A DNA stretch of 64,000 nt from Bradyrhizobium sp. 141. Lineage in GTDB: Bacteria > Pseudomonadota > Alphaproteobacteria > Rhizobiales > Xanthobacteraceae. The position numbers and the translations under genes were made by a program. Every line of letters starts with the position of its first letter. Position 1 is the stretch's first letter. Of the stretch, positions 55,281 to 57,747 are shown one piece after another. Location of the stretch: positions 186,001-250,000 of the forward strand of contig NZ_JADPKR010000080.1 of assembly GCF_023074055.1 (NCBI RefSeq). Reading direction: 5' to 3'. The notes below the pieces were generated by a model. The model saw nothing but the letters and a program-made list of their open reading frames with translations, was not told the origin of the DNA and searched no databases.

Positions 55281-55643
55281 ATGTCCATGCGCAGCTTCAC
55301 GGCATCCGTCATCGTTGCAGCTCTCTCCCTCGGAACACCTGCTCTGGTGCAGGCACAGGGCGCATCGTCGCAACCCGGCGCGGAACAGCCCTCCACGCAG
55401 TCCAGCACGGAGATCCGGAGCATACAGGTTGTGGACATCAAGGAATTGCAGCCGTCGGTGCGCGCGAAAGTCGATGAACTGGTGGCGCACACAACCGATC
55501 AAGACATCCAGTCGCTTCGGCAGTCCATCGACGCCACGCCGCAGGCCGCCTCCGTGCTCAAGGCCAAGGGCTTGAGTTCGTCACAAGTCGTCGCGATCAA
55601 CATCGCCGACGGTGTCCTGACGATGTTCACCAAGACAGCCTGA
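55281..55643 (+). CDS. Small exported protein of unknown function
   Basis: The 120-residue product has a signal peptide (ends ALVQAQ), then a Ser/Gln-rich spacer and a helical domain with KELQPSVRAKVDELVAHTTDQDIQSLRQSIDATPQAASVLKAKGLSSSQVVAINIADG. I do not recognise the family. GGAAAGG lies close upstream of the ATG at 55281. It is followed by a hairpin at 55735-55760. Gene order suggests no tight link to the caspase gene 257 bases on. Confidence 0.65.
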   Translation: MSMRSFTASVIVAALSLGTPALVQAQGASSQPGAEQPSTQSSTEIRSIQVVDIKELQPSVRAKVDELVAHTTDQDIQSLRQSIDATPQAASVLKAKGLSSSQVVAINIADGVLTMFTKTA

Positions 55644-55899: not shown

Positions 55900-57747
55900 A
55901 TGGCCGTTCTACGGCTCACCATTCTTTTTTTCCTGGCCTGTTGGCTCGGTCTTGGCGACGCGAGGGCCGAGAAGCGCGTCGCGCTGGTGATCGGCAATTC
56001 CGCCTATAAGAGCGCACCCAGACTGACCAACCCGGTGAATGATGCGAGCCTCGTCGGCGGCATGTTCAGGAAGGCCGGGTTCGATAGCGTCGACGTCAAG
56101 CTGGACCTCAATGCCGCCGAGATGCGCCGGGCGCTCCGCGACTTCGGCGGCAGGACGCGCGAAGCCGATGTGGCCGTGGTCTACTATGCCGGTCACGGCA
56201 TCGAGCTGGACGGCACCAACTATTTGATCCCCACCGATGCCACGCTCGAGACCGACAGTGATGTGCTCGACGAGACGCTGCCGCTGGAACGCGCCCTGTT
56301 CGCGGTCGAGCCGGCCAAGCAGCTCCGCCTTGTGATCCTGGATGCCTGCCGCGACAATCCGTTCTCCAAAACCATGAAGCGGACGATTGCCGCGCGCGCC
56401 ATCGGCCGCGGCCTTGCCAAGGTCGAGCCGACCAGTCCGAACACCATGATCGCCTTTGCGGCCAAGGCCGGCTCGACCGCCTCGGACGGCGATTCCAGGA
56501 ACAGCCCGTTTGCCGCTGCGCTGGTCGAACGGCTCCCCACCCCCGGGCTCGATCTGCGCAAAGCGTTCGGCTTCGTCCGCGACGATGTTCTCAAGAACAC
56601 CGGCTACAAGCAGGAGCCCTATGTCTACGGCTCGCTCGGCGGCGACGACGTGCCCCTGATTGCGGCGAAGCCTGTCGTCGTCGGCCCCCAAGCAAACCCC
56701 GACAGCGAGATCCGGCGTGACTACGAACTGGCGCTTCAGCTCGGGACACGTGACGGATGGACCGCCTTCCTCAACCGCTTTCCGAGCGGCTTCTACACCG
56801 ATCTGGCCAAAGGCCAGTTGAACAAGATCGCCGCCGAGGAAACCCGCGCGACCACGGCAGACAAGGCCCGGCAGGCGGAAGAGGAGAAGGCCCGACTCGC
56901 CGCGGAGCGCGCCAACAAGGCCGAACAGGACAAGGCGGCGGCCGCAGCCAAGGCCGCCGAGGAAAAGCGTCATGCGGCCGAGAAGGCCAAGCAGGTGGAG
57001 GAAGCCAGGGCCGCCGCAGCCGAGCAGCGCCGGAAGGAAGCAGAGGCGGCCGCTGCAAAGGCATTGGCCGACAAGCAAGCCGCCGAGAAGGCGTTGGCCG
57101 AGAAGCTCGCCAGCGACAAGCTCGCAGCTGAGCTGGCCGCCAAACAGGTAGCCGAGAAACAATCCTCCGCGAGTGAACAGAAGGTCGCAGCCGTAGCGCC
57201 CTCCTCGACCCCGCCTTCGATGTCGCCGCAGGAAACGACGAAGCTGGTTCAGGCGGAGCTGCGCCGGGTCGGCTGTCTCAGCGCCTCCGCGGATGGCGAC
57301 TGGAACGCGTCGTCACAACGCTCGCTGACGCTATTCAACAAATATGCCGGCACGAAATTCGACGCCAAGCTCGCGAGCTTCGATGTGCTGGACGCGATCA
57401 AGGCCAAGCCGGGACGCGTATGCCCGCTGCTCTGCGACCACGGCTTCAAGGCCGACGGCGACGCGTGCGTGAAGATCACCTGCCGCGCCGGCTACCGCGT
57501 GAATGACGACAATGAATGCGAGAAGGTGCAGGACAAGAAGCCGGTCGCTACGCGCGAGGATGCCAGCAAGCGGGAAGATCAGCGGAAGCAGGTCGAAACA
57601 GCGCCGGCAAAGCCGCAGGCGTCGGGACAATATGTCTGTAACCAGGGTGGCTGTCGCCCAGTTGGTCCAGGGTGTCGACTTGTCCAAGGCCAAGCGTACG
57701 GCTTAAACGGCCTCGGAGCCAACACGAACCGGGAAGTCTGCCACTAA
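55900..57747 (+). CDS. Exported caspase-like (peptidase C14) protein with coiled coil and Cys-rich C-terminus
   Basis: The 615-residue protein starts with a signal peptide (ends GDARAE) and a caspase/metacaspase p20-like domain: KRVALVIGNSAYK, the catalytic His99 in VVYYAGHGIELDG and Cys150 in LRLVILDACRDNPF. A charged Ala/Lys/Glu coiled coil spans about residues 310-430. After it comes a peptidoglycan-binding-like helical segment (TTKLVQAELRRVGCLSASADGDWNASSQRSL), then a cysteine-rich EGF-like module (CPLLCDHGFKADGDACVKITCRAGYRVNDDNECEK) and more cysteines at the end. Orthocaspases cleave after Arg or Lys; the substrate here is unknown. Export and the cell-wall-like domain place it in the periplasm, so a role in cytoplasmic defence is unlikely. 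Confidence 0.85.
   Translation: MAVLRLTILFFLACWLGLGDARAEKRVALVIGNSAYKSAPRLTNPVNDASLVGGMFRKAGFDSVDVKLDLNAAEMRRALRDFGGRTREADVAVVYYAGHGIELDGTNYLIPTDATLETDSDVLDETLPLERALFAVEPAKQLRLVILDACRDNPFSKTMKRTIAARAIGRGLAKVEPTSPNTMIAFAAKAGSTASDGDSRNSPFAAALVERLPTPGLDLRKAFGFVRDDVLKNTGYKQEPYVYGSLGGDDVPLIAAKPVVVGPQANPDSEIRRDYELALQLGTRDGWTAFLNRFPSGFYTDLAKGQLNKIAAEETRATTADKARQAEEEKARLAAERANKAEQDKAAAAAKAAEEKRHAAEKAKQVEEARAAAAEQRRKEAEAAAAKALADKQAAEKALAEKLASDKLAAELAAKQVAEKQSSASEQKVAAVAPSSTPPSMSPQETTKLVQAELRRVGCLSASADGDWNASSQRSLTLFNKYAGTKFDAKLASFDVLDAIKAKPGRVCPLLCDHGFKADGDACVKITCRAGYRVNDDNECEKVQDKKPVATREDASKREDQRKQVETAPAKPQASGQYVCNQGGCRPVGPGCRLVQGQAYGLNGLGANTNREVCH

Follow-up and report, generated by a model that had tools for sequence, protein, structure and literature searches.

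A putative exported caspase-family protease of Bradyrhizobium with a peptidoglycan-binding-like domain and a hypervariable, exchanged C-terminal tip

The caspase gene and its locus

The window analyzed here is a 64,000-nucleotide stretch of the genome of Bradyrhizobium sp. 141, and all positions refer to it. The gene under study lies on the plus strand and was divided into the following features; the evidence for each is given in parentheses.

55900..57747, plus strand: whole gene, caspase-like protease (ATG open reading frame of 615 aa, stop included; Pfam)
55900..55968, plus strand: signal-peptide-like start, residues 1-23, with A-x-A at 21-23 (hydropathy; conservation)
55969..56649, plus strand: caspase domain, residues 24-250, with H99, C150 and the putative acidic S1 residues D48, D148 and D196 (Pfam, profile alignment, Foldseek)
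56791..57126, plus strand: predicted long Ala/Glu/Lys helix, residues 298-409 (AF2; composition and periodicity)
57127..57225, plus strand: predicted disordered linker, residues 410-442, with the conserved island Q427-K428-V-A-A (AF2 pLDDT; conservation)
57226..57417, plus strand: PG_binding_1-like three-helix domain, residues 443-506, with C459 (Pfam matches of relatives, AF2, Foldseek, structural second look)
57418..57534, plus strand: predicted cysteine hairpins, residues 507-545 (C508; C512-C523; C528-C540) (AF2; co-loss)
57628..57744, plus strand: hypervariable tail, residues 577-615, with the four-cysteine frame C580, C585, C592 and C614 (divergence, typing, identity comparisons)
57676..57738, plus strand: variable loop flanked by C592 and C614 (87 types among the 164 genes with the frame; internal Lys/Arg in 82/87 types)

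The reading frame proposed in the initial annotation is real: it opens with ATG and encodes 615 aa, of which residues 25-245 match Peptidase_C14, the sole significant Pfam domain (123.4 bits against a cut-off of 21.4). The whole-protein AF2 model has a mean pLDDT of 79.3 and a pTM of 0.44. The protein did not reach the NCBIfam cut-offs for TolA (21.9 bits versus 59.45) or for NF047832, the EACC1-associated caspase type (50 bits versus 140); the PADLOC caspase profile, for which that library holds no curated cut-off, matched at 33.3 bits (E 7.4e-9). The pattern GGAAC-N17-CGTT, which we take as an EcfG-type promoter, does not occur in the window.

The window gene belongs to a clade found beside lon: nine of the ten lon-linked genes, the window's included, group together (SH-aLRT 92, from a tree built by a quick method with no bootstrap). 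No consistent partner gene was found across 76 loci, as the lon neighborhood occurs in nine of them and the other 67 have no match to the seven neighboring window genes that were compared. A 120-aa protein with a signal-peptide-like start is encoded at 55281-55643, upstream of the caspase gene; in lon-linked relatives such as L063, L069, and L074 it lies downstream, indicating that local gene order has changed.

Catalytic domain and predicted specificity

The sequence YYAGHG, beginning at residue 95, supplies H99, and DACRDNP, beginning at residue 148, supplies C150. Both residues, as well as D48, D148 and D196, are kept in each of 119 distinct family members, which confirms the intact His99/Cys150 pair reported in the initial annotation. 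The best solved relatives of the window protein found by phmmer are MALT1 paracaspase chains, and MALT1 is also the top Foldseek match of the AF2 whole-protein model (E 1.2e-16). A profile alignment puts D48, D148 and D196 on acidic MALT1 residues, presumably D365, D462 and E500, whose role we take to be holding the P1 arginine. Given that these pocket residues are invariant in the family, its caspase domain likely cleaves after Arg or Lys; sequence and predicted fold thus agree with the specificity that had been suggested for it.

The window protein differs from MALT1 in its signal-peptide-like start, and neither Ig nor death domains, as in a MALT1-type paracaspase, appear in its Pfam list at E<=10. 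Orthocaspases are set apart from metacaspases by the absence of a p10 domain. With bacterial orthocaspases and metacaspase-like proteases (Peptidase_C14; MaOC1 of Microcystis, for example), the window protein shares a caspase domain with a His-Cys dyad, to which it adds the signal-peptide-like start, a wall-binding-like domain and a variable, putatively disulfide-framed tail. Members of this orthocaspase/metacaspase-like group are described as cutting after positively charged residues (PMC6426788; PMC5756287).

Putative export signal, helix and linker

Strongly hydrophobic 19-residue stretches start only at residues 1-3, and the A-x-A site at residues 21-23 is conserved (A21 in 115/119 and A23 in 118/119 members); both fit the signal peptide that had been proposed. 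This segment diverges fast, with a dN of 0.54-0.71 in six comparisons with lon-locus orthologues. A lipoprotein was considered and rejected, C14 not being conserved (among 119 members, I in 32, T in 19, V in 14, M in 13, L in 11, plus others). Between residues 24 and 442 the only cysteine is the catalytic one in 119/119 members, whereas beyond residue 442 there are exactly ten in 118/119, the exception (L036) having a different tail; two DsbB matches above cut-off are present in the window's genome. The ten C-terminal cysteines, the lone catalytic cysteine and DsbB fit an exported, oxidized C-terminus.

The long coiled coil of the initial annotation is instead one predicted helix (residues 298-409) with no 3.5-residue periodicity (384/1000 shuffles equal it), and a classical coiled coil was rejected, as the heptad signal is absent. 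In the linker that follows, residues 411-440 have a mean pLDDT of 31-37. Inside this otherwise variable, disordered segment, the Q-K-V-A-A island (57178-57195) is conserved, with K/R at position 428 in 114/119 members, and it is possible that it serves as a cleavage or docking site. We keep self-cleavage at K428 as an idea: a [KR][VIL]A[ASL]-like site follows the domain in 4/12 non-family caspases of the genome (shuffles mean 0.59; 2/1000 as high), but such sites are scattered in two further genomes, and the [VI]A[AS][LVI] core also occurs upstream of the C-terminal module with no basic residue, and in a kinase. Order-wide, this core is overrepresented within the 60 residues preceding the module (22/81; shuffles mean 2.7, maximum 8). 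The background of the QK motif is 5/363 ORFs, some of which are possibly broken caspases.

A cysteine-rich, peptidoglycan-binding-like module

The C-terminus carries cysteines at positions 459, 508, 512, 523, 528, 540, 580, 585, 592, and 614. In a separate structure prediction, residues ~445-545 are modeled as three helices followed by short hairpins, with ten-residue pLDDT means of about 90-98. The initial annotation placed a peptidoglycan-binding-like segment here, and this stands for relatives and for the predicted fold: PG_binding_1 matched 15/20 relatives at E<=1 (best 1.1e-5), although the window sequence itself has no match. A structural second look (VIA) at the predicted C-terminal model returned cell-wall enzymes and wall-binding proteins in rows 1-16 (Z 5.3-8.3, where values under 8 may reflect a common arrangement only), including SltB3 (Z 8.3, rmsd 3.2, 63 aligned) and SleB (Z 8.2, rmsd 2.4, 64 aligned). 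The peptidoglycan-binding part is named in the titles of two of these 16 rows (4xxt and 5tv7); we assume that it is also the aligned part in the remaining ones. Foldseek E-values for the same model were weak, at 0.14 or more.

Pairing of the cysteines was approached through their joint loss in 83 module sequences: the window's own and 82 ORFs from other families and genera of the order (L244 overlaps L259, so that one gene is counted twice, and cysteines shifted by one column were accepted). C459 and C508 are always both present, and among these related sequences the co-loss phi is 0.84 for 512-523 and 0.82 for 528-540, with other informative pairs at 0.32 at most. This pattern, read informally from sequences that share ancestry, suggests three sequential disulfides: 459-508, 512-523, and 528-540.

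An EGF domain has six cysteines paired 1-3, 2-4, and 5-6. The initial annotation proposed a six-cysteine EGF-like module that contacts a eukaryotic host, and below-cut-off Pfam scores for cEGF (11.9 bits against 26.6) and Antistasin, together with ~30-residue Foldseek matches to factor IXa light chains (E 3.5 or more), lean that way. There are ten cysteines, however, and they co-vary as sequential rather than interleaved pairs, so the EGF reading fails; the module is also present in 45 of the 122 genera sampled in the order, and we regard a host-contacting EGF module as extremely improbable. It had equally been allowed that the Cys-rich part might be unfolded and not conserved; this is contradicted by the ten cysteines in 118/119 members and by the high pLDDT of residues ~445-545.

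Distribution of the module and of the caspase family

In the order, at least 73/297 genomes had a match to the C-terminal profile (E<=0.001) and at least 78/297 to a broader module profile (E<=1e-8), no more than 11 or 16 candidates having been scored in each genome; class and phylum samples outside the order gave mostly short, weak matches to the peptidoglycan-binding part. Domains were surveyed at the best 80 places outside the genus and family (the partial match G114:C675 was skipped, 35 weaker places were left out, and the scan omitted two secondary ORFs). These 80 ORFs comprised 50 with Peptidase_C14, 41 with PG_binding_1, 2 with a protein kinase, 2 with an FGE-sulfatase and 1 with a nucleotide cyclase domain. 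With 50/80 being caspases, the module is mainly a caspase partner in Hyphomicrobiales and is sometimes joined to signaling enzymes; within the order, the combination that had been called unusual for bacteria is therefore a common one among module-bearing ORFs.

In Bradyrhizobium, the family C-terminus was found in 143/146 genomes at E<=1e-30, in up to ten copies, and each of 40/40 genomes has 7-21 Peptidase_C14 matches. The window's genome has 19 Peptidase_C14 places, including seven intact full-architecture paralogues (L009, L010, L011, which is the window gene, L013, L014, L015, and L016) in which the ten C-terminal cysteines are invariant; neither the six further copies nor the hypervariable tail had been noted in the initial annotation. 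A decayed eighth copy, L027 (G000:C66:15990-16400), is a 282-aa open frame with the caspase part, C512 and the four-cysteine tail lost, and so contrasts naturally with the intact ones. Three further Peptidase_C14 paralogues (L008, L012, and L019) lack the dyad residues (FFGGYG, FFSGFG or FFDGLA; DASR) and are pseudo-orthocaspases, which are known from Rhizobiales (PMC6426788). Two genomes, G959 (L302) and G1034 (L306), have arrays of five consecutive family matches, judged by position. One member, L080, comes from a record titled Frankia sp. RB7 (Actinomycetota) and is placed inside the Bradyrhizobium tree; this assembly is therefore probably mislabeled or contaminated.

A hypervariable tail on a fixed cysteine frame

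In six comparisons with lon-locus orthologues, dN was 0.028-0.072 for the caspase domain, 0.037-0.057 for the peptidoglycan-binding part and hairpins, and 0.55-0.70 for residues 577-615, where dS was saturated in five of the six. Over the last 40 residues, the caspase is 45-47% identical in five relatives whose caspase bodies are 85-91% identical, compared with 88-100% for neighboring genes; the one outlier in this control, a value of 0.0 for lon versus L077, was taken for a split-ORF artifact. The frame nevertheless persists as Q..C...GCRPV..GC ... E[VI]C with small departures, and its four cysteines are kept in 118, 118, 119, and 119 of 119 members. Tips were typed in 166 genes, of which two with altered frames were dropped, L036 having been dropped earlier for lacking the standard tail; the remaining 164 framed genes, from 61 genome labels, have 143 distinct loops of 12-29 residues, falling into 87 types. 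The tail is modeled as beta strands, with ten-residue pLDDT means of only about 53-78.

Exchange of tips between genes

Cores and tips do not always travel together. Fourteen pairs of genes have core DNA at least 93% identical and different tails, and two tandem copies in one genome (L067) combine 97% identical core DNA with unrelated tips. Conversely, 22 pairs have near-identical tails and cores below 86%; in 16 of them the tail DNA exceeds the adjoining peptidoglycan-binding DNA in similarity, in five it falls below it, and in one the two are equal. One of the window genome's own paralogues (L015) and L073 have an identical tip protein, at a tail DNA identity of 0.91 and a core DNA identity of 0.757. 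Between genomes, the tip type is common to both genes in 29/84 pairs with cores of at least 0.90, and there are 66 same-type pairs with cores below 0.80, a single genome or pair often recurring in these counts.

Along L107 and L123, identity is 0.92-0.97 in the upstream DNA and body, 0.2-0.63 in the last 150 bases, 0.33-0.42 in the next 100 and then 0.92 again; between two orthologous flanks, a patch has been replaced. In 21 close pairs whose tips differ, identity averages about 0.9 before it drops to 0.44-0.55 over the final 60 bases; downstream it remains near 0.48-0.66, and a sharp edge on that side is therefore not typical.

A diversity-generating retroelement (DGR) was rejected for the window gene: its 132-nt tail DNA has no match in its own genome other than itself, and hence no template copy. 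The tail profile matched seven places in that genome, all on the seven caspases, and a motif scan of 116 loci found 0 orphan tail cassettes versus 179 tails inside genes. Short frames with tail-profile matches were seen in G926 (142 aa and 23 aa) and G934 (86 aa).

Selection on the tip and composition of its loop

Within tip types, pN/pS is 0.25 (199 equal-length pairs, types of the first typing), indicating that the types are kept by purifying selection. This bears on a neutral account, in which nearly any sequence would do in the tail, and the tail would be carried along when neighboring copies recombine. Two or three long family matches lie within about 10 kb in 33/76 loci, which would provide for such recombination, and the signal peptide is divergent as well; on the other side stand the purifying selection, the preserved four-cysteine frame and a constraint on basic residues in the loop (below), and we consider neutrality improbable. 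About as improbable is escape variation, in which the tip would be exposed to attack by phage, bacteriocin, predator or host, and a swap would evade it. A hypervariable loop on a fixed frame and the sharing of types by several genomes (28/82 in the first typing) are what escape would produce, but the types are under purifying selection, and several coexist within one genome.

Coexisting tips may tend to differ. Within genomes, the same type occurred in only 1/240 pairs; a permutation expects 4.45, with 1 or fewer in 289/5000 runs, which is borderline, and one genome may carry two labels, so that pairs could shift between the within- and between-genome classes. With rates taken from pairs of different genomes matched for core identity, 7.9 same-type pairs would be expected (236 pairs; Poisson 0.003, pairs not being independent). 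Two equal-scoring 774-aa copies in G924, outside the sample, may be a second same-genome pair sharing a tip. An explanation can be built on this distinctness together with the dimer activation of caspase relatives, as metazoan members of the caspase family are described as being activated by dimerization (PMC5756287); with the plain permutation borderline and the G924 copies as a possible exception, we give it little credence.

An internal Lys or Arg is present in 82/87 loop types (shuffles mean 63.1, maximum 73, n=5000), and exactly one in 56; of 14 other residues or classes tested, Glu was the next strongest (43/87; mean 36; reached in 6/2000 shuffles). The loop could thus be a reactive one, closed by a putative disulfide, that acts as a bait or pseudo-substrate for Arg/Lys-specific proteases, either its own or a sister caspase, with the neighbors of the basic residue tuning which protease cuts or is blocked; the pocket residues, which predict Arg/Lys at P1, agree with this. 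The basic residue, however, has no fixed place and little common context, and 77/87 types have a net loop charge of 0 or +1, so balance against a conserved Glu could explain it too. Either of these two causes could account for the loop Lys/Arg, and as a whole the bait explanation appears unlikely.

A candidate wall-held protease with an exchangeable tip

The reading that we favor, with modest confidence, is that the window gene encodes an exported, peptidoglycan-held protease of the caspase family whose cassette-swapped tip chooses targets or partners. After export, the protease would attach to the wall through its disulfide-clamped PG_binding_1-like domain on peptidoglycan, while a helix of about 110 residues would hold the catalytic domain apart from the wall domain. 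Proteolysis would take place in the periplasm or at the surface, with targets or partners chosen by a ~40-residue disulfide-framed tip, the loop of which would be replaced as a cassette among paralogues and strains. The proposal builds on what was computed, namely the domain make-up, the conserved pocket and catalytic dyad, the framework of cysteines, the swapping of tails and the purifying selection within types; export, wall attachment, protease activity, disulfide pairing and recognition of something by the tip are what we infer. Against it are the lack of a PG_binding_1 match in the window's own peptidoglycan-binding segment, the weak Foldseek E-values of the C-terminal model, the low pLDDT of the tail, the failure to find a consistent partner gene and the equally fast divergence of the signal peptide; moreover, rapid change of the tip could be tolerated rather than selected, and its distinctness within genomes is borderline. 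That the tip is variable and swapped raises the plausibility of some role in recognition, yet it does not point to the plant host suggested in the initial annotation. More tentatively, the wall-tethered family with its swappable basic-residue tips might form a retroelement-free recognition or bait repertoire, upheld by cassette exchange, in which each paralogue has its own target or key; on balance we doubt this stronger version.

Variable proteins of DGRs have a C-type lectin fold; the tail studied here is modeled as beta strands at low confidence, and no lectin title was among the 50 Foldseek rows shown for the C-terminal model. In cyanobacteria, such retroelement-driven variable proteins can have an orthocaspase-like N-terminal domain (PMC7517822); they differ from the family described here, in which a 40-residue cysteine frame is exchanged as a cassette and the window's tail has no genomic template copy. 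Conflict systems with caspase effectors include one in which a constant caspase part is combined with many alternative C-terminal domains (PMC7159879); as described there, these are multi-gene systems, whereas the family described here showed no partner gene and varies in a 40-residue tip. Caspases have thus been reported in or beside hypervariable systems of both the retroelement and the conflict kind (PMC7517822, PMC7159879, PMC10907252). Metacaspases with a putative peptidoglycan-binding domain (11 sequences, 1.6%), reported along with extracellular metacaspases (Asplund-Samuelsson 2012, PMC3501461), share the caspase/peptidoglycan-binding combination; the available part of that account describes no variable tip. 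The Bradyrhizobium protein A5ECX2 is a secreted caspase with one or more C-terminal YARHG domains proposed to bind peptidoglycan (PMC3355149). Secretion and a putative C-terminal wall domain would be common to it and the window protein, but YARHG is not among the window protein's Pfam matches.

In the open-access literature, we came across no report of rhizobial caspases whose variable tail is swapped. We know of no settled account of the role of bacterial caspases outside the cytoplasm, and a family that is apparently anchored in the wall and combines a single conserved protease with many swapped tips gives direct access to extracytoplasmic caspase function. If the tips choose targets, rhizobia would have a caspase-based recognition system that is diversified by cassette exchange, with no retroelement.

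The module itself also occurs on other enzymes: in other Hyphomicrobiales, a kinase (L205:605-2575) and a nucleotide cyclase (L198:566-1768) end in the cysteine-clamped peptidoglycan-binding-like module, and it is possible that this Ser/Thr kinase and this cyclase are wall sensors.
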